64,000 nucleotides of DNA from Pseudanabaena sp. FACHB-2040. Lineage in GTDB: Bacteria; Cyanobacteriota; Cyanobacteriia; Phormidesmidales; Phormidesmidaceae. The notes below the pieces were generated by a model, which did not search any database, was not told where the DNA came from, and was given only the letters and a program-made list of their open reading frames with translations. The first letter of the stretch is position 1. Every line of letters starts with the position of its first letter. The translations under genes were made by a program, and so were the position numbers. The stretch is from contig NZ_JACJQO010000008.1 in NCBI RefSeq assembly GCF_014696715.1, positions 124,001 to 188,000 on the forward strand. The letters are read 5' to 3'. Below, in pieces: positions 18,937 to 39,302 of the stretch.

Positions 18937-18990
18937 TTTTCTTAGGTAACATTTAAGGCATTGCCAAGACAATTTTGTTACCTAAGAAAA
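18937..18990. repeat. CTTAGGTAAC hairpin element, copy 1
   Basis: Perfect 14-bp arms TTTTCTTAGGTAAC (18937-18950) and GTTACCTAAGAAAA (18977-18990), spacer 26 nt. The same arms with a 25-26 nt spacer but unrelated spacer sequence recur at 22366-22415 and 27087-27135. It lies 25 nt after the TraX gene and could also act as a terminator. Confidence 0.8.
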
Positions 18991-22365: not shown

Positions 22366-22415
22366 TTCTTAGGTAACAGAATTGCGAGTTTTAGGTCAAG
22401 AATGTTACCTAAGAA
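22366..22415. repeat. CTTAGGTAAC hairpin element, copy 2
   Basis: Arms TTCTTAGGTAAC (22366-22377) and GTTACCTAAGAA (22404-22415), spacer 26 nt. The right arm supplies the TAG stop codon of the primase-like gene, so the element sits exactly at that gene's 3' end and may work as its terminator. Confidence 0.8.
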
Positions 22416-24274
22416 TATGCACCTTGCCAATACGCTTGCCGCAGATAGTAAAGCAGTGTAATCAGCTCCTCATCCTGCAGTTGGCTCCGCCGTCTGCCCT
22501 CAAATCGGGCTGCAATGAAGTGCATTATCTGCTCTGCCGTCCAACCCAGACGCTTGACTTGGTCCGCGAGTTTATCAAATAACTCAGACAGCGGAATTTG
22601 GCTACCTGAGGTTGGGCCCAATCCCTCCATTTCAATGGCCTGGTCGGGCTGTGGAAAACTTAGCGTCTCCCCCCGCACCCCCCTCTCCGGAGAAATGAGG
22701 TTTAAATTCGAACCTGCGTCATGGCCTGCAGAGCTTTCACCCTTCATTAATCTCTCTAAGGTCTGTAACGCCCCTGTTTTCTCTAGGTTTGAGCGATCGT
22801 TAAAACCTGCCTTAAAACTCGCTGCGTCCTTCTGATCGCGCTCTGGGTCTGCTGTTACAGGCGATTGCTCAGGCTGCTGCGCCAAAAAGGGCTTTGAGTC
22901 TTCTGCAATAGACGCTGAGAGGTGGTCTGGATGCCACAGGCCTAGATGCTTGTAGAGGGTCTGGGCTGAGGTCTGGGCCATTGTGATCAGTACCTGCACT
23001 CGGGCCCTGACGGTAGTTGGCATTTGCCCCAGCGTTAGAAGCTGCTGGGCAGCCCGCTGAATGCGACAGCGGGCGTCTTGCGATCGCACCTCATTCTGGT
23101 TAGGAGTAGACTCGGTCGATGTCGGGCTGCCCATGGGCCAGTAATACTTCTCGGCAGCTCTCGCCCAGGCAATTGCTCGTCGCCGGATCTCGCCTTGGTG
23201 GCGGCAATATTGGCGGTAGCCGGGCAGGTGTGGGGCAATGCGGCAAATGTAATCAATCAGGGCCGTTCCTTGGTGTCGCTCAAAGACAACCCCGTAGCAG
23301 GCAATGGTTTTAAGCAGCCGATTAGTCTGGCCGTAGTCGGTCCAACCTTCGGCAATCTCTATTTCTAGGTCAGCTCGCCAGGTTTGTGTCAGGCTTAGGG
23401 TGCGCCGAGCTCGTCTGCGTCGATTGTTGCGACCAACGCTCAGTGCTCGGTGCAGCATCTCCATATCTTGGGCCTCTGCTGCCTGCTCCCAAATCCAGAG
23501 GAAGTGCGACAAGCTGTCGGTCACGGGCTGCAGGGCGTCATCTAGAACGCAGGAGCCGCTGCCGGGCTGAAGGGGCAGCCGGTGGGCATTGTATTCAACA
23601 AAGATAGTGACCCCATAGGTTTTGGGGTTGGGAAAGATTTCGAGCTGCCCCGGCTTAATCTCAAAGCCTTGGGCCTTGAGGCAGCCCTCTAGAGCCACCG
23701 CTAGATTAAAGGTATTAACAGCTTCTGGTAGCGGTACATAGAGGTGCAGCCCGCCATTCCAGCTAGAGCGAATCAGTAGGGTGCGGGCAATGCCTATTGT
23801 TTCCAGCGCGGCCCGTAGGGTTGCAATAGACTCTGCCGACTGGTCTTTGCCCCCGTTGTTGGAGCGATAGGGGCTACCGGCATCTAGGTCGATCAGGGCG
23901 TAGCGTGTAGTCTGGCCAAAGCGCACGCCGATCAGCGTGTTAGCGTCTTGCCAGAGGCTCCATAAGACTCTCGGCCGCAGCGGGTAGCCAGTAAGGGTTC
24001 TCCAGAGGGGTGCAGCGGCGGCATTCTCTGGCAAATCAGCTGTAATAGCCTGCCACGGGTAATGACCAAAGATTTCGCACAGCCCCTTGCCATCAGGATG
24101 CCCAGGTAAAGGATCTGAGGTAAGGAAGTCGCTTTTAGGTCTGCTCTTTTTAGGGTTTGGTTGGTTTAACAAAGCACTATCTCCAATGAAAGGGCGAGAG
24201 CCTAAGCCAAAACTCTCGAAGTTGTAATCAATGGGGAAGAAAGTGTTTTGCCTGCAAACAAACCCAAACAGCAC
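22409..24274 (-). CDS. Primase-like (AEP-type) plasmid replication protein
   Basis: 621 residues. The N-terminal half has motifs in the order expected for an archaeo-eukaryotic-primase catalytic core: YALIDLDAGS (hhhDhD metal-binding motif), RSSWNGGLHLYVPLPE (s-x-H motif, with the Arg/Ser-rich approach) and GQLEIFPNPKTYG, followed by HRLPLQPGSGS. The C-terminal half is helical with a basic segment GRNNRRRRARR and a Pro/Gln-rich linker. It lies directly beyond an iteron array and a Rep-like gene on the same strand, which supports a priming or initiation role. The assignment rests on motifs read by eye; no helicase motifs are visible. The start may be the ATG at 24274 or a later one. Confidence 0.65.
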   Translation of the reverse strand: MLFGFVCRQNTFFPIDYNFESFGLGSRPFIGDSALLNQPNPKKSRPKSDFLTSDPLPGHPDGKGLCEIFGHYPWQAITADLPENAAAAPLWRTLTGYPLRPRVLWSLWQDANTLIGVRFGQTTRYALIDLDAGSPYRSNNGGKDQSAESIATLRAALETIGIARTLLIRSSWNGGLHLYVPLPEAVNTFNLAVALEGCLKAQGFEIKPGQLEIFPNPKTYGVTIFVEYNAHRLPLQPGSGSCVLDDALQPVTDSLSHFLWIWEQAAEAQDMEMLHRALSVGRNNRRRRARRTLSLTQTWRADLEIEIAEGWTDYGQTNRLLKTIACYGVVFERHQGTALIDYICRIAPHLPGYRQYCRHQGEIRRRAIAWARAAEKYYWPMGSPTSTESTPNQNEVRSQDARCRIQRAAQQLLTLGQMPTTVRARVQVLITMAQTSAQTLYKHLGLWHPDHLSASIAEDSKPFLAQQPEQSPVTADPERDQKDAASFKAGFNDRSNLEKTGALQTLERLMKGESSAGHDAGSNLNLISPERGVRGETLSFPQPDQAIEMEGLGPTSGSQIPLSELFDKLADQVKRLGWTAEQIMHFIAARFEGRRRSQLQDEELITLLYYLRQAYWQGAYS

Positions 24275-24408
24275 AGCCTTTGATTGAGCTGTGGTTATTG
24301 CTGTATGAAAGAATTGGTCTTAAAATAGACAAAACAACTCCGCAAGTACTCAAATAGCTGTGGCAGCTCGATTTGGTGAGTACTCATTCCCGCAAGGGAT
24401 CAATTAAG

Positions 24409-24441
24409 AGGCTTCTGCTGGTGGTTCAGTGGAAGCCTTTT
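24409..24441 (+). terminator. Candidate terminator hairpin
   Basis: AGGCTTC (24409-24415) and GAAGCCT (24432-24438) followed by TTTT. It lies in the non-coding region upstream of the primase-like gene; what it would terminate is unclear. An untranslated RNA of the origin is possible. Confidence 0.4.
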
Positions 24442-24497
24442 AGCTATTTGTTTATGTAATCATCGGCAGACTGCTCACGCGAAAAAGAGGTTGTTAT

Positions 24498-24546
24498 TTA
24501 GTACACGCCTTTCAGGGTTCAAAAAGCGTGTACTAATCGATCTCTT
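24498..24546. repeat. Inverted repeat TTAGTACACGC in origin region
   Basis: Perfect 11-bp arms TTAGTACACGC (24498-24508) and GCGTGTACTAA (24536-24546), spacer 27 nt. The geometry resembles the CTTAGGTAAC elements but the arms differ. Confidence 0.6.
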
Positions 24547-24663
24547 ATAGCAGATGCCTGATTACAGCTCGGCTGCTCAAAACAGACTGTTTGTAATCAC
24601 TTGAGCAGCATAAAATCTCAACCGAAATGCAAAACCCTTGAAGATCCGTTCCCGCTCAACGAC

Positions 24664-25332
24664 TTTGGGGGTGGGGTTCTAGAGACTTTGGGGTGGGGGC
24701 TCTAGAGAGTTTGGGTCAGTGGTTCTAGAGTCGCTTGTAATCATACTTAGGGGGGAGGTTCTAGAGATATCTGTAATCAAACCCGCCCGAAGTTTGGGGT
24801 GGGGGTTCTAGAGCTCAGTTGTAATGGTGTAATAATCTGGCTTTTAAGGGGTGGGGTTCTAGAGGTATCTGTAATCAAACCTGCCCGAAGTTCGGGTGAG
24901 GGGTTCTAGAATCTCTAAGTAATCATGTAATCCAAAGGAGTAGGCCTGTTGGTATAGGCTGCTTTAGAGAGTTCTGCACCTTCTTGGTCATTTGGGGGGT
25001 AGGTTCTAGAGCAGTGCTGTAATCATGCGATCGCAACTACTCCTATTTGGGATAGGGGTTCTAGAGACTTTTTGTAATCATGTAATGATTAAAGCCTGAG
25101 ATTGCCTCCTAGTAAGGGTTCTGCTGGCTATAAATATCCCCTGTTTTGCTAGGTCTGCACTAGCAAAGCTCTATCTTTTAAGGTATGGGCTGGCCTTCTG
25201 CTCGAATATCTGAGTTACAAAAGGGGTTTATCCAACCGGATTCTGAATAATTGCAGTATTTGCAGCACAAGATGACCCGATTCACAGATCAGCCTGTGTT
25301 AGGGGAGGGGTTCTAGAGATTCTTTGTAATCA
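24664..25332. repeat. Iteron array, candidate plasmid replication origin
   Basis: Ten copies of a GGGGTTCTAGAG core, with TCTAGA at 24678, 24701, 24724, 24760, 24807, 24858, 24905, 25005, 25060 and 25312. All have the same orientation and most are preceded by a G run. Six are followed 12-14 nt after the TCTAGA start by TGTAATCA; two more have near matches. Two copies share a longer block beginning GTAATCAAACC. The array lies between the 3' end of the Rep-like gene and the 5' side of the primase-like gene. This is the arrangement expected for an iteron-controlled theta origin. TGTAATCA also occurs at the very end of the Rep-like gene. Confidence 0.75.
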
Positions 25333-25373
25333 ATCCTTCGAGCAAACTGCTTTGTGATCGCGTGTAGTTGAGA

Positions 25374-26792
25374 TCACATGTAATCAAATACCTGCCGCAG
25401 CGTTTCCTCATTCTCAGGGCTGATTGAGCGGGTGCCATTTTCAATCATTGAGATTAACCCTTGGCTCAGACCCGTTAGGGCCGCCAGCTTGCGCTGACTC
25501 CACCCCTTTTCTGTCCGCAAATGATGGACCTCTGTTCCGGTAAGCCCGTCTTTTTCGGCTTCGGGTGTAGGCTCCAGCAAGGTATCGGTGGCGGCTCCCT
25601 CTCCGGGCAGCAGTCCGTGGTTAATCCAAGCTTCGGGCGGGCTAATCCACAGGTAGGCATCCATCAGCGTCTCAAAGAACCCTCTAGGCCGCCTTGAGAT
25701 TTCCTCTCGGCCAAAGCTGATAGGCCGAATCTCAACTGGGTAAGTGTCGCCATCAAACTGGATCTTCCAGCCCTTGTCGTGGAGGGCGAGCAGATCGTCG
25801 TCCCAGGTGCTAGCCAGCTTTTTGCGGAGCTGATAGTCTTCGTAGGCTGCCTGAATACGCTGGGGGCCGTAGGCTACCTCCATCAGAGTCTTAACATTGA
25901 GCGCGTTCTGGCGGCTGAGCTGAGTTTTGAAAAGCAGCCAGACCATGAGCCGGGCGGCTCCTTCGCGGTGCTGCCAGAGCCCCATCACGCTTTTGAGCAG
26001 CGATTTCGATAAAATGCCCTGCTGCGGTCGTACCGCTTGACCGTCTTCGTCATCTAAAAAGTACTTGGCCCAGAGCCCAGCCTTAACCACAAAGGTCATG
26101 CCAACCAGCTCCTGATTGCCGAAGAGGTCGTATTGATAGTGATAGCGGGTTCCTAGCAGGTGCCAGAGTCGGCCTTCCTCAATGGTAAAGCCCTTCGACT
26201 TGCCCTGCCGGGGCCAAGAAATGTAGGTGGTAATTTTGCAGGGCTGCTTGGCGATCTCTTCAATCAGCGCCAGCTTTTCTTTTCGGTTTTTATCTGTGCG
26301 CTGTTGCAGGCCCAGGTAAGCCTGAATCTGGCGATCGCTGATGACCAGTTCCTGCTCCCAAGGCCGCTCAACCTGAGTAGCATGAGCAGCAAAAATCAGG
26401 TGCATACAGGCAGCCCGAATGTCGAAAGTCTCAATCACTGCCAGGGCTGCTGCCCCCGCTAGTGTAGCCGGGTGCTCGTCTTCTAAGTTCTCAGTCACCC
26501 AAAAGTAGATTGCCCCCTGGCCGTTACCAATGTCGGGAGCGTAGCACAGTTTACCGTCGGGGTCAGGCTTCCAAGGCAGGTGATCCCGCTGGGTCAAAAT
26601 CTTGCTGGCCTCAAAAATGGGCAGTGGGGAAGCGACCGGTGTTGTGGAGCTGTTGGCAAACAGGTCTGGGTTGGTCACTGGCCGATCACCTGCCAAAGTC
26701 GGAGGAGTCTGGGCCTCGTCTGTTGCTGAGGCTTTTTTCCTCGCCTTAGAGGTGGGCTTTTGAGATCGGGGGGACTTGCGCGATGTAGCCAT
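25374..26792 (-). CDS. Rep-like plasmid protein with C-terminal XRE-type HTH
   Basis: 472 residues. A basic N-terminus (RKSPRSQKPTSKARKKAS) is followed by a helical/winged-helix body (about 130-380) with YLGLQQRTDKNRKEKLALIE and LSKSLLKSVMGLWQHREGAA, the general look of Rep_3/RepA-type initiators. It ends in a lambda-repressor-like HTH (about 412-470) with LRTEKGWSQRKLAALTGLSQ and ISMIENGTRSI. The gene ends 40 nt from the last iteron. Function as initiator is inferred from the neighbourhood. The HTH could bind the iterons or autoregulate. The ATG at 26790-26792 lacks a strong ribosome site. Confidence 0.6.
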   Translation of the reverse strand: MATSRKSPRSQKPTSKARKKASATDEAQTPPTLAGDRPVTNPDLFANSSTTPVASPLPIFEASKILTQRDHLPWKPDPDGKLCYAPDIGNGQGAIYFWVTENLEDEHPATLAGAAALAVIETFDIRAACMHLIFAAHATQVERPWEQELVISDRQIQAYLGLQQRTDKNRKEKLALIEEIAKQPCKITTYISWPRQGKSKGFTIEEGRLWHLLGTRYHYQYDLFGNQELVGMTFVVKAGLWAKYFLDDEDGQAVRPQQGILSKSLLKSVMGLWQHREGAARLMVWLLFKTQLSRQNALNVKTLMEVAYGPQRIQAAYEDYQLRKKLASTWDDDLLALHDKGWKIQFDGDTYPVEIRPISFGREEISRRPRGFFETLMDAYLWISPPEAWINHGLLPGEGAATDTLLEPTPEAEKDGLTGTEVHHLRTEKGWSQRKLAALTGLSQGLISMIENGTRSISPENEETLRQVFDYM

Positions 26793-27086: not shown

Positions 27087-27135
27087 TTCTTAGGTAACAT
27101 ACTCGTAGCCTCTCTCTAATCTCGTTACCTAAGAA
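27087..27135. repeat. CTTAGGTAAC hairpin element, copy 3
   Basis: Arms TTCTTAGGTAAC (27087-27098) and GTTACCTAAGAA (27124-27135), spacer 25 nt. It ends 4 nt before the ATG of the DUF6788 gene, so in this position it occupies the leader and could control translation. Confidence 0.8.
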
Positions 27136-27139
27136 AGCC

Positions 27140-27469
27140 ATGTCCTCCTCCAAACTCTCTGCCGCTGATATCCGCCACCACATCACTCACGACCTCACCT
27201 TAGATCAAGTAGAAGACCTACAGATCTGGCTAGCAGATCACCTGGCAACCCTAGAGCGACAGGCTGAGGAATGGCTGCCTCCAACGGCTAATCAAGTGGT
27301 GGCAACCCGGCGATTGGGTAAGTCCTGTCTGCTCTTAGAAGGGGTCAAATGCGGCAAGGAAAACTGTCGCTGTGCCAGCGGTAAGCTCCATGGCCCCTAT
27401 TGGTATGAATATTGGCGGGAGGGCAGCCGGGTTCGCAAACGCTACCACGGCAAACAAATTAGAAGCTGA
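27140..27469 (+). CDS. DUF6788-type small cysteine protein
   Basis: 109 residues. The C-terminal half carries the DUF6788 pattern GVKCGKENCRCASGKLHGPY followed by YWREGSRVRKRYHG. The three clustered cysteines suggest a small zinc- or nucleic-acid-binding unit. The N-terminal half is helical. Proteins of this type are common on mobile DNA in cyanobacteria and other phyla. Its function is unknown. The gene begins directly after copy 3 of the hairpin element. Confidence 0.75.
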   Translation: MSSSKLSAADIRHHITHDLTLDQVEDLQIWLADHLATLERQAEEWLPPTANQVVATRRLGKSCLLLEGVKCGKENCRCASGKLHGPYWYEYWREGSRVRKRYHGKQIRS

Positions 27470-27692: not shown

Positions 27693-28766
27693 TTAAACCT
27701 CAATTCCTAAATCCTCGGCAATAGAGGCAATCTCATCTAACAGCTTGTCGATTTTACTGATTCGGCTCTGCACCTGCTTGTTTTTAAATAGCTGCTTCTT
27801 ACGGCGCAACATCTTGATCTGAGTATAAACTCGCTCGTAGACAGGTTCTTCTGACAAGTTCTGATTGAGACTTTCTGGTTGGCTGTCCCCAGATGTTCCC
27901 AGACGCCCCCTTTCGCTACTTTCACTTAAGGCTGATCTGGCTGATGAGGATCTGTGAATTTGAGACAGTAGCTTCATCAGCTCTTCTTTGGTCAGCCCTT
28001 CACTCTGCTGCACAAGCTGCTCATGTAGGTTCTCTGGCTGGCGGTTGATCAGCGTGGCGTTGGTGGGTGAAAGTTTTCCTGCTCGGACTGCTTCTAGAAT
28101 GACTGGGGCCAAATTAAGCAGGGGCAGTCGATTTGAGACAAAGCTGCCAACCTTCAGATCAAATTCTTCTAAGATGGCCTCTGCCACCTGCATCTCTTCC
28201 TCATCAACGCTGCCTATCATTCCAGAATGATAGTTTTTGATTTGGCCTACAAGTCTCTTCACCTCTTCAAAGGACTTCTTTAGCCGCAGCATCAGTAAGC
28301 CCATAATCGAGTCGGTTTCCTCGATTGGGGAGATTTCTTCGCTTAAGAGGTGAGCAATTAGCGCCACCTCTAGGGCCATTTCATCGGACATTTCCACGGT
28401 CATCGCTGGAATAGTCTCGATGCCCAACTCGCAGCAGCAGCGCCAGCGCCGCTCGCCGCTGATAATCTCGTAGAGCCCATCCTCAGCAGTTCGCACCAAA
28501 ATGGGTTCTAACACGCCTTCATGTTTATCAATGGAGGCTTTGAGCTTTGCCATTTTGTCTAGGGCAAAGTAGCGCCTAGGCTGCTTTAAGTTTTCAGGTA
28601 GGCGCAGGGGAACGATCTGTTGAGTAGGGAGCTGAGTGCTGGCGCTAGTGGATTGCGATCGCAGCATCTCCAGTTCAGCCTTGAGCTGAGCGATTTCATC
28701 ATCTCGTTGGGAAGACATCGCTCCCTGAAACATGGTAGACATGGGGCGCTTGCTTAGACGTGCCAT
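27693..28766 (-). CDS. parB: ParB-family partition protein
   Basis: 357 residues. The ParB/Srx N-terminal domain has LPENLKQPRRYFALDKMAKL and the signature ISGERRWRCCCELG (the GERRxRA box, about residues 118-131). The HTH region follows, with IGSVDEEEMQVAEAILEEFD and LVEPI-like segments. A disordered linker leads to a basic helical C-terminus (MLRRKKQLFKNK). It begins 2 nt after the parA stop, so it is one operon. A TA-rich N-terminal tail MARLSKRPMSTMFQGAMS carries basic residues. It should bind a centromere; candidate sites flank the operon. Confidence 0.85.
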   Translation of the reverse strand: MARLSKRPMSTMFQGAMSSQRDDEIAQLKAELEMLRSQSTSASTQLPTQQIVPLRLPENLKQPRRYFALDKMAKLKASIDKHEGVLEPILVRTAEDGLYEIISGERRWRCCCELGIETIPAMTVEMSDEMALEVALIAHLLSEEISPIEETDSIMGLLMLRLKKSFEEVKRLVGQIKNYHSGMIGSVDEEEMQVAEAILEEFDLKVGSFVSNRLPLLNLAPVILEAVRAGKLSPTNATLINRQPENLHEQLVQQSEGLTKEELMKLLSQIHRSSSARSALSESSERGRLGTSGDSQPESLNQNLSEEPVYERVYTQIKMLRRKKQLFKNKQVQSRISKIDKLLDEIASIAEDLGIEV

Positions 28767-28768
28767 GA

Positions 28769-29599
28769 TCAGGCTCCAATAACTGCATCTGCAATGTCTG
28801 CATAAATTCGATTGGCTGCTTCACCGGGCCGAAACAGCCCTAAAGGTAGACCGGCAGCCGCCGCATTGGCGATATGGGCACTGTCGTTAATCTTGGAAAA
28901 CATGGGGATGCCCATTGTTCGCATGATGCTAGGCAGGGTCTCAATGTCTGCGATAGGGCTCAGACCTAGGTTGTCTCGGTGCATGGCGCGGTCTTTAAAC
29001 CCGTTGGGCACAAGGCCCAGGATCTCAGGCGCTGGCTTTAGCCTCAGCTCTTGGCGGGTGCGGTAAATCCAGTCAATCAGCTTAGCGACCGCATCAATGT
29101 CTTTATCCTCGGGCTTGAGCGTGACTAGGATGTGGGTTGAGGCTGCCAGGGTAACCGTATGAAGCTGCTCAATAGTGCCAGGACAGTCAAAAATAATGAT
29201 GTCGTGAGGCAGTGGGTAGTCTTCTAGCTTATCGGCCAAAAGATACTCGCCTCGCTTAGTCATCGTCAGGCGCTGAGCAGTTTCAGATAAAACTAGGCCG
29301 CCCAGACAAGCATCAATTCCTGAGATCCGATCTGCCCAGGCCGAAAACAAAGGGTAGTCTCCAGCAAACTCAGGTCGCAAAATGTAGTCAATCGTCTGGT
29401 CGGCTGCGGGATCATCTAAGCCACAAAATAGGGTTAAAGAGCCGTTGGGGTCACAGCCAAAGAGGGCAACGGTCTGCTTCTTTCTAGCCAACTGGTAGGC
29501 CAAGTTGACTGCTAGGGTAGTTTTTCCAACTCCGCCGCTGTTAGATTGGATGGCAATTCTTTTTTGGGGCATGGGGAGTTCATCAGAACGCCCTATCAT
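28769..29599 (-). CDS. parA: ParA-family partition ATPase
   Basis: About 276 residues from the ATG at 29599, or 267 from the ATG at 29572. Walker A reads SNSGGVGKTTLAVNLA. The usual deviant Walker A is KGGxxKT, so the signature lysine is replaced by serine here. Walker A' DPNGSLTLF and Walker B IIIFDCPGTIEQL are present. The C-terminus is DSAHIANAAAAGLPL. It precedes parB with a 2-nt gap. The role is ATP-driven partition of the replicon. Without the signature lysine the dimer ATPase may behave differently, though some ParA subtypes tolerate this. Confidence 0.85.
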   Translation of the reverse strand: MIGRSDELPMPQKRIAIQSNSGGVGKTTLAVNLAYQLARKKQTVALFGCDPNGSLTLFCGLDDPAADQTIDYILRPEFAGDYPLFSAWADRISGIDACLGGLVLSETAQRLTMTKRGEYLLADKLEDYPLPHDIIIFDCPGTIEQLHTVTLAASTHILVTLKPEDKDIDAVAKLIDWIYRTRQELRLKPAPEILGLVPNGFKDRAMHRDNLGLSPIADIETLPSIMRTMGIPMFSKINDSAHIANAAAAGLPLGLFRPGEAANRIYADIADAVIGA

Positions 29600-29614
29600 A
29601 ATACCTAAGCCCAA

Positions 29615-29651: not shown

Positions 29652-30584
29652 CTAGGCTGGGTGAGGCGATTCCTGGGCGTAGCGGCTGAGACTCTGCGCA
29701 GACTTGTGCCGGGTTAACGCAATGACCTGATGCAGGTCTAGGTCCTGATGCATCAGACGAGCGACAAAAGTATGGCGGAACCGATGGGGATGCAGGCTGA
29801 AGCCGGTGGCTGCCTGCAGTTTATTCAAAACATCGCGCACGCCCCACGCGCTGAGGCGCTGCCCGTAGCTGCGGCGCGAATAGGAGAGAAACAAAGGGCA
29901 ACTGTCGCTTAGGCTTTCCCCCAGCCGAGTCCGTGAGGCGAGGTAGGTCTCCAAATCTTTTCGGGCCTGGTCGTTGAGCGGCACCTGACTAATCACTTGA
30001 GTTGTTCTAACCTGGAGCCGATCGCTCCGGTAACCGCCTATATCTAGAGCAGAAATTTCCTCCGCTCTAACCCCATGAAGCAGAACCGAGATGAGTGCAG
30101 TGTCCCGTTTAGGAAAAGAACCTGCGAGAGCCATCTCATAAATCTGGGCTAGTTCTGTTGGGCTGAGTGCTGTGGTGTGGGTATTTTCGCTGTGTGAGTC
30201 ATGGGGTGTAGCCACGGCTGATGTGGGATCTTTGGGTATGTATCCGCTATCAACCATCCAGCGAAAAAATTTCTGAAGTGTTGCCATTGCTCGTTTAACA
30301 GTGGCAGGAGCCAGCGACTGCTCTATTAAAAATTTTTGATACTGCACTATCTGCCCATAGCTGACCTGCGGCCAATCTGTCTCGGTCCACTCCAAGAATC
30401 GCTTCAGATCTTGTCGGTAGGCTTTTTGGCTGTTTTCAGAGAGCGATCGCACCTGCAAAAACTCATCCACACTTGCCTGGCGTCGGTCGGTCGGCAACCC
30501 TGACCCTCTCTGGCTCGGCTTAGAGGCAGCCCGTTGAAGCTGAAGCGAAATAATGACAGGCTCTGGTGTCGGCTTTCGAGGCAT
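29652..30584 (-). CDS. Tyrosine recombinase (XerC/D-like), plasmid type
   Basis: 310 residues. The N-terminal SAM-like core-binding domain has VDEFLQVRSLSENSQKAYRQ, and the catalytic domain has LLHGVRAEEISAL (first Arg), PHRFRHTFVARLM (H-x-x-R) and LTRHKSAQSLSRYAQ (His and the nucleophile Tyr). Lying just upstream of parAB in the same direction, it is likely a resolvase for plasmid multimers or an integrase of the module. No att or dif-like site was identified. Confidence 0.88.
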   Translation of the reverse strand: MPRKPTPEPVIISLQLQRAASKPSQRGSGLPTDRRQASVDEFLQVRSLSENSQKAYRQDLKRFLEWTETDWPQVSYGQIVQYQKFLIEQSLAPATVKRAMATLQKFFRWMVDSGYIPKDPTSAVATPHDSHSENTHTTALSPTELAQIYEMALAGSFPKRDTALISVLLHGVRAEEISALDIGGYRSDRLQVRTTQVISQVPLNDQARKDLETYLASRTRLGESLSDSCPLFLSYSRRSYGQRLSAWGVRDVLNKLQAATGFSLHPHRFRHTFVARLMHQDLDLHQVIALTRHKSAQSLSRYAQESPHPA

Positions 30585-37911: not shown

Positions 37912-38736
37912 CTAACGGCTGCCACCCGGAAAATAGCGCCGCCGCCGCTGCCGCCGCGGTTGCCAGGGCAGTCTAATGTCGCTGAAGTGGAAAGTACCGC
38001 TGACAAAGTGCTCCTCAGTAGTTTCTGTTGGTTTCTCCTTTAAGCTGCGCAGCCCATTGAGGTCAATGAAGCTAAAAACGACTTTAGAGAAAAATGGAAC
38101 TAGACAGAAGAGAAAGGTTTCGACCGTGCGATCAAAAACATTTAAGGCAGCAGGCCCCAAAATCCAAATAATTGGGTAGCAAATCCAGGTTACGGTGAAA
38201 AAGGTGGTTAAGCGGTCATAAAATCGAACTAGTGCAGGCTCATTCTGCGATTTAGCCCGGTCACGGTAGGGGCCCCAGATCAGCCAGAGCACTACTAGAA
38301 ACGCGACCGTTCCATTGATGTACCAGAAATACCGCACACTGGGTACGGCAGCAATATCGGCTAACAAGCCCGACCCAATGACAATCACCTGCGTGGCCAT
38401 GGCAGAGAATATCAGGGTCCAGTCTTTGTGTTTCATGTAGTGCATGGCCGACCAGCCCAAGGCCAATAGCAGTAGGGGCGTGGTGACAATCCAATCTAAG
38501 TAACGACCTAGAAAGACAATATGGTCATCGAAGGGATTGATTCTGCCAAACTCTAGGCCTTCACCCGGCATTACTAAGGATAAATAAGCCAGCCCTGACC
38601 AGATTGGAATAAACATCGCAACGAAATATTCCAGCTTGGGAAGGCCCTTGGGATTTCTGCCAAGCAAGGCAAAATATAGGGCTCCAATTGCCATGCCAGC
38701 AATGTAGAGCCACTGCCAAAAATACTGCCAATTCAT
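37912..38736 (-). CDS. Anabaena-type sensory rhodopsin (xenorhodopsin clade)
   Basis: 274 residues from the ATG at 38736, which has AAGAGG 6-11 nt upstream. Seven membrane helices; the whole protein follows Anabaena sensory rhodopsin (for example RNPKGLPKLEYFVAMFIPIW, FSFIDLNGLRSL). The retinal Schiff-base Lys is K218 in PFFSKVVF. Counterion Asp81 is in RYLDWIVTTPLLLLAL. The proton-donor position is Ala92 instead of Asp. The position of bacteriorhodopsin Asp212 is Pro214, as in Anabaena sensory rhodopsin. The cytoplasmic tail is basic (RRQRRRR). The soluble transducer normally next to such rhodopsins is not adjacent. Expected role: photochromic green/orange light sensing, or inward proton transport as in some xenorhodopsins. 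Confidence 0.93.
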   Translation of the reverse strand: MNWQYFWQWLYIAGMAIGALYFALLGRNPKGLPKLEYFVAMFIPIWSGLAYLSLVMPGEGLEFGRINPFDDHIVFLGRYLDWIVTTPLLLLALGWSAMHYMKHKDWTLIFSAMATQVIVIGSGLLADIAAVPSVRYFWYINGTVAFLVVLWLIWGPYRDRAKSQNEPALVRFYDRLTTFFTVTWICYPIIWILGPAALNVFDRTVETFLFCLVPFFSKVVFSFIDLNGLRSLKEKPTETTEEHFVSGTFHFSDIRLPWQPRRQRRRRYFPGGSR

Positions 38737-39302
38737 AAATAACCTCTTATTGTAATTCTCAGCTAAGGCAATTCTTGTCAAAGAAAAGTGATCGAAATGT
38801 GATCAATGCTCAGGAGTAAAATTCAGGAACAAAATTTTTGCTACTCCGGTTCCTATTCACAGGTACAGAACTGCTTGAATGGCACAACTAACCTAATTAA
38901 TAGCGGCTCCTGCAAGCAAAATCCTACTTAGATAACCATTCTCTCTAAAGAGAAAGCTTCTATCTTGAGATGCATTTAGATATTTCAGTTAACTGCAAAT
39001 TCAGATACAGATTTAAGGGTTTTGAGAGTCATACAAAGCTTTAAAGCCTGGCCTAGCCAACAATTAGCTCGATGCCAGCAGTGTTAAATCAACTGCAGAA
39101 TTATAGGCTGCTCATCATTCGTTTGCCATCATTTGCTCATCGCTAGACACCGATGGCGATCACTAACCCACTACTGTGGCAGGGGCTAACAATTTATAAA
39201 TCATTCTCCTTTAGCAGGATGATCCTCTGTCTTGGCCTACCTAGCATCGAGTTGATCGGTTTCCTCGAAGACCTGTGACCTCGCGCAAAGGCAGATACTC
39301 TC
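38737..39302. other. Divergent promoter region, rhodopsin and phosphoketolase
   Basis: 566 nt, AT-rich, no gene seen. Two TGATC-containing repeats AAGTGATCGAAATGTGATC (38785-38803) lie near the rhodopsin start; TGTGATC is a CRP half-site sequence, but no full palindrome was found. A small palindrome TTCTCTCTAAAGAGAA sits near 38939. Confidence 0.4.

Follow-up and report, generated by a model that had tools for sequence, protein, structure and literature searches.

We conclude, with a probability of roughly 0.8, that positions 22409-26792 of the DNA analyzed here are a plasmid-derived replication origin of the iteron (theta) type, whose initiator is the protein encoded at 25374-26792. The analyzed stretch, hereafter the window, comprises 64 kb (C8:124001-188000) of the 241,361-bp contig C8 from a genome of 44 contigs. 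Two minus-strand genes, the initiator (Rep) gene (25374-26792) and a primase-like gene (22409-24274), flank an array of directional direct repeats that takes up the gap between them. As judged from sequence, the repeats appear to lie beside their cognate initiator gene in the manner of iteron origins. An earlier note on this DNA had proposed an uncharacterized cyanobacterial plasmid origin. The iteron origin is upheld by the predicted Rep and Prim-Pol folds, the locking of the repeat motif to Rep, the operator and purifying selection, whereas a plasmid location is not evident for the window, as C8 ends at an rRNA operon and is most simply placed on the chromosome.

The array (24664-25332, minus strand) is composed of ten TCTAGA-centred sites that read 5' to 3' as TGATTACA-N6-8-TCTAGAACCCCnnCCCC, or TGATTACA-N6-8-TCTAGAACCCC as written in the gene direction. 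The TCTAGA cores were located at 24678, 24701, 24724, 24760, 24807, 24858, 24905, 25005, 25060, and 25312, and the G-rich flank lies to the left of all ten, demonstrating a single orientation. The ten copies in one orientation, and their position after the HTH/Rep-like gene and ahead of the primase-like gene, are as the earlier note described them. The partner box TGTAATCA follows the core unchanged in six copies and as the near matches TGTAATGG and AGTAATCA in two, so that most copies do carry it; the distance of 12-14 nt given previously is, however, a start-to-start distance (12-13 nt), the true gap being 6-7 nt. Likewise, the site of about 30 bp is indeed bipartite, but its G-rich side reaches further than was written. 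Numbered from the initiator side and all on the minus strand, iterons 1 (25299-25332, recognized by repeat family D1 and motif comparison), 2 (25047-25080), 3 (24992-25025), 5 (24847-24877), 7 (24749-24779), and 8 (24711-24744) are full bipartite sites, and iterons 4 (24892-24925) and 6 (24794-24827) have the variant boxes TGATTACT and CCATTACA, respectively. The two leftmost copies, iterons 9 (24688-24711) and 10 (24665-24688), are tandem copies with a spacing of 23 bp that lack TGATTACA and its complement TGTAATCA. With up to two mismatches allowed, GGGGTTCTAGAG has 16 matches in the 64-kb window versus 4.6 expected, a number reached in 0 of 100 shuffles, and the ten array copies among them are all on the plus strand. 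Shuffled windows contain at most three TCTAGA per 660 bp, and a chance origin of the array is thereby ruled out. Between 24200 and 25459, no 60-bp stretch exceeds 63% AT, and no AT-rich unwinding element is conspicuous.

The same site recurs in relatives, which were compared using 80 loci from genome contigs. The consensus from 16 homologous gaps is TGATTACA-N6-8-(T)CTAGAACCC-n4-CCC-n-AA, or tandem copies without TGATTACA that have a period of 22-23 bp. In these gaps, which represent several genera, CTAGA starts 14-16 nt past the start of TGATTACA (77 pairs) and is followed by aCCCnnnnCCCnAA. The plasmids of Leptolyngbya NIES-3755, Gloeocapsa PCC 7428, and Synechococcus PCC 7502 encode 58-65% identical initiators with the same repeats after the gene, although what comes next differs: a gene for a window-primase relative in the first, for a DUF3987 protein in the second, and for a CyRepA1-family protein in the third. 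By locus, the same iteron lies ahead of a CyRepA1 gene in L004 and of DUF3987 genes in L003 and L054, and in relatives with divergent initiator and primase genes the array still lies between them, on the primase strand. No comparable array was detected upstream of Prim-Pol genes that have no such initiator beside them (pSYSG, contigs C27, C19, and C31 of the window genome, and BL0902), which rules out a primase-associated array. These two observations together indicate that the array follows the initiator and not the primase. An array was present at 21 of the 26 loci where the initiator has a replication gene as neighbor versus 14 of the 62 where it has none, a comparison that ignores kinship and counts among the latter a locus (L042) cut off where a primase-like reading frame begins. 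A search of 59 family genomes showed clusters of the bipartite motif almost only at the initiator locus, and the reversed control pattern gave one match. At more distant initiator homologues (27-46% identity), the corresponding position is often taken by different repeats, some with a CTAGAAT core.

Several of these loci have further features of their own. Loci L060-L111 encode approximately 40% identical initiator homologues, many without a primase or array and some on chromosome-size contigs from Nostocales and others. In Oscillatoria PCC 7112 (L027, 4950-10520), a distant initiator homologue, ACAAAACCTCTAGAATGCC repeats, a hypothetical gene, and a plasmid-coded dnaB helicase gene lie in a row, and on pANACY.01 of Anabaena cylindrica (L028, 4464-9153) a gene with a reverse-transcriptase domain lies beside an initiator homologue. 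A phage origin of the module was ruled out, neither protein being matched by tblastn in 50,697 phage records.

The 472-aa product of the initiator gene has a core of two predicted winged-helix domains and a C-terminal XRE-type HTH domain (residues ~418-470). Pfam matches this C-terminal HTH only (PF01381 HTH_3, E 4e-10), and searches of Pfam, PHROGs, and NCBIfam returned HTH/regulator profiles and no curated Rep profile. We found no described function for this family, which the databases list only as an HTH regulator. An AlphaFold model was built from 45 homologues (pLDDT 83.5). The best PDB fold match of the model found by Foldseek was to domains 2-3 of RctB, the initiator that binds the iterons of Vibrio chromosome 2 (E 2e-4, probability 1.0), and two crystal structures of these domains were the only PDB matches with E <1e-3. 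The TM-scores of this match over the full chain are low (0.28/0.44), and it is thus taken as support at the level of domains. RctB domains 2-3 contain two winged-helix motifs and have been described as structurally homologous to the plasmid F protein RepE (PMC5395669); the modeled Rep would accordingly have the winged-helix core of iteron-type initiators. In a congeneric genome (G001), the genes for Xer, ParA, ParB, DUF6788, and Rep are syntenic with the window (locus L032), and comparison of the 92% identical Rep proteins gave a dN/dS of 0.045, demonstrating strong purifying selection. That locus has two iterons left, one of them inverted, and no primase gene follows Rep; the conservation of Rep despite this suggests that it may have another role. 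The neighboring DNA of this fragmented assembly matches C6 of the window genome, a different contig.

The primase-like gene encodes up to 621 aa, its start codon being uncertain. Its Pfam match, PF09250 (E 0.0033), is under the gathering score. The residues DxD (D129, D131), H177, and E212 are invariant, and the structural model, of modest confidence (pLDDT 61.7), has a clear fold match to the CAPP Prim-Pol 7p9j (E 2e-6) and to other AEP enzymes. The predicted fold and the DxD/H/acidic catalytic pattern place the protein in the Prim-Pol/AEP superfamily. Family searches revealed no helicase domain in it, and neither the primase nor the initiator had a significant BLAST match to two CyRepA1 proteins. 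Two adjacent relatives of the window primase (36% identity) are encoded on Synechocystis plasmid pSYSG (L008, 5998-9620) and are candidate replication genes.

Between the array and the primase gene lies a putative control region, whose inverted pair, -10 box, and strong leader hairpins were missed in the earlier note. An operator-like pair (24559-24599) consists of TGATTACA (24599-24592, minus strand) facing TGTAATCA (24566-24559, minus strand) at a distance of 33 bp. The same pair, at 32-33 or 43-44 bp, is present between array and primase in 9 of the 16 homologous gaps, the two spacing classes differing by one helical turn; this arrangement was found neither in shuffles nor on the other strand (0 in each). 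In the nine gaps, the pair is followed by a TATAA-like box 16-17 nt past the start of GTAATCA, which in the window is TATAAG (24544-24549, minus strand, 16 nt). This putative -10 box of a primase promoter was found by comparison, a plain sigma-70 consensus scan having left it unreported. The inverted iteron half-site would thus resemble the operators of iteron systems, though it precedes the primase gene. The primase leader can form a hairpin with 15-bp arms (24498-24536, minus strand; folding z -6.2), and a second hairpin followed by a T-rich tail (24404-24443, plus strand; z -3.8) on the strand opposite the primase is a possible antisense RNA end. A comparable leader hairpin is kept in four relatives; its loop contains UUGG, and several of its pairs show compensatory changes. 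An antisense RNA ending in the primase-leader hairpin is therefore plausible. Replication control by an antisense RNA has been proposed for pSYSA (PMC9978351). No Rfam RNA reached the gathering score in the 64-kb window.

From these features, a working scheme of origin function can be proposed. In each direct repeat, the TCTAGAACCC half would be read by the two winged-helix domains of the initiator and the TGATTACA half by its C-terminal XRE-type HTH. The array-bound initiator would open the DNA and recruit the AEP primase and the host replicative helicase on the primase side. Initiator dimers on the inverted TGATTACA pair may control the primase promoter, as a form of autoregulation, and the antisense RNA ending in the leader hairpin could be a second brake.

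On the far side of the initiator gene are a DUF6788 gene (27140-27469, plus strand), which also occurs beside Rep homologues elsewhere, and the minus-strand genes for a ParB-like protein (27693-28766; PF02195, E 7e-23), a ParA-like protein (28769-29614; PF13614, E 1e-23), and a XerC/D-like tyrosine recombinase (29652-30584; PF00589, E 4e-17). A separate family of inverted pairs, TTCTTAGGTAAC-N24-26-GTTACCTAAGAA, occurs in the window at 18939-18988, 22366-22415 (the 3' end of the primase gene), and 27087-27135 (just ahead of the DUF6788 gene), on contigs C15, C38, and C39, and at 4448-4497 of L032. Their arms are conserved and their interiors mostly differ; a partition, recombination, or repressor site is possible. 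A transposon bounded by the palindromes at 22366 and 27087 is unsupported: additional copies occur elsewhere, and the module lacks flanking direct repeats of ≥16 bp. The left end of C8 (1-600) is a repeat common to C7:1-170 and C15:9858-10262, and the C15 copy lies ~350 bp from the TTCTTAGGTAAC site at C15:9501. Further along the window, a bacteriorhodopsin-like gene (37912-38781; PF01036, E 1e-53) adjoins a phosphoketolase gene.

Two other functions of the array were considered. The HTH protein could be a regulator that tunes the primase gene through many operators, with replication starting elsewhere. Its C-terminal XRE HTH, the annotation of its relatives as transcriptional regulators, the overlap of the inverted pair with the promoter, and the many ~40% identical homologues lacking primase or array are all in line with such a role. 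We nevertheless consider it improbable: ten to more than 20 direct repeats over 0.5-1 kb with a 22-23-bp period go far beyond the needs of a promoter, the core is predicted to fold like iteron initiators and not like XRE repressors, and the array is kept while the downstream gene swaps among replication proteins. The repeats could instead be a partition centromere bound by ParB of the neighboring operon, which lies within a few kilobases of the array. This is very improbable, since the array tracks the Rep homologue and is present where ParAB was neither annotated nor detected nearby (L004, L150); moreover, ParB sites are usually short palindromes, whereas the TCTAGA sites are directional, and the TTCTTAGGTAAC palindrome pairs (18939, 22366, 27087) are better candidates.

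An iteron origin of plasmid descent leaves the location of the module to be considered. C8 terminates in the first 75 nt of 16S rRNA as detected by cmscan, and a 195-bp rrn leader is common to the ends of C8, C5 (over 1.25 Mb), and C7, with 116 bp of it also on C9; a 16S search of the whole genome listed no matches, and the rRNA evidence therefore consists of the contig-end cmscan and the shared leader. No end overlap indicative of circularity was found in C8. These sequences are most simply read as a contig of the chromosome that was broken at an rRNA operon, and the module in the window strain most likely sits in the chromosome near that operon. The intact module of Adonisia turfae (G033/L049), which lies within a 7.69-Mb scaffold holding dnaA, also argues for such a location. 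Alternatively, C8 could be an autonomous megaplasmid or chromid of ~240 kb that carries an rRNA operon, the module being its working oriV. This alternative, which concerns the location and not the origin itself, is the less likely one; it agrees with the module being on 196-344-kb scaffolds apart from dnaA in four genomes (G003, G008, G009, G031), as well as with the ParAB and TraX genes of C8, the accessory-type genes in the samples taken from it, and no tRNA found on it. With C8 probably chromosomal, the origin may be silent in the window strain, which has its own dnaA on C13. Firing in place, as an additional DnaA-independent chromosome origin in this strain and in Adonisia turfae, is unlikely. 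Such an origin, if real, would be a natural counterpart of the dnaA suppressors of Synechococcus elongatus, whose chromosome came to be replicated from an integrated plasmid's origin (PMC7198777).

Little information is available on the Rep proteins of plasmids from cyanobacteria, and no known Rep is named for Synechocystis pSYSM and pSYSG (PMC10899382). Our literature searches found no earlier description of iterons in cyanobacterial plasmids, and the word "iteron" is absent from the texts of PMC9978351, PMC10899382, and PMC10079941. The present finding suggests that many cyanobacterial plasmids carry members of one initiator family, which has a defined iteron and is combined with exchangeable replication enzymes. 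It also suggests that CyRepA1-type proteins can function at an iteron origin together with a separate initiator. The module also offers vector parts and, because such modules are chromosomal as well, a direct approach to the question of whether some chromosomes of cyanobacteria start replication at captured plasmid origins.

Among known systems, the module resembles RctB/ori2 of Vibrio chromosome 2 and the iteron plasmids with RepE, pi, and RepA in its predicted two winged-helix initiator, its several kinds of binding sites, its direct repeats at the origin, and its inverted site near a promoter. In contrast to these systems, to which no sequence similarity was detected, the window initiator has an extra C-terminal XRE HTH, the composite iterons with TGATTACA are longer (about 35 bp), the operator precedes the primase gene and not the initiator gene, and initiators of this type come with an AEP primase or CyRepA/DUF3987 protein encoded on the plasmid. 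With the CyRepA1 replicon of pSYSA (PMC9978351) and the CyRepX replicon of pSYSX (PMC10899382), the module shares a cyanobacterial setting, a regulatory region upstream of the replication enzyme, and a proposed control by antisense RNA, and in Synechococcus PCC 7502 an array and initiator of the window type directly precede the CyRepA1-family gene. The window primase is, however, not a CyRepA homologue by BLAST, and CyRepX (Slr6031/Slr6090) is helicase-like as published, a description that sets the window proteins apart. Finally, the window primase shares its fold and DxD/H/E pattern with CAPP, the cyanophage S-2L PrimPol, and the PF09250 family, from which it differs in its sub-threshold Pfam score, the lack of a detected helicase domain, and its position beside a separate iteron initiator.
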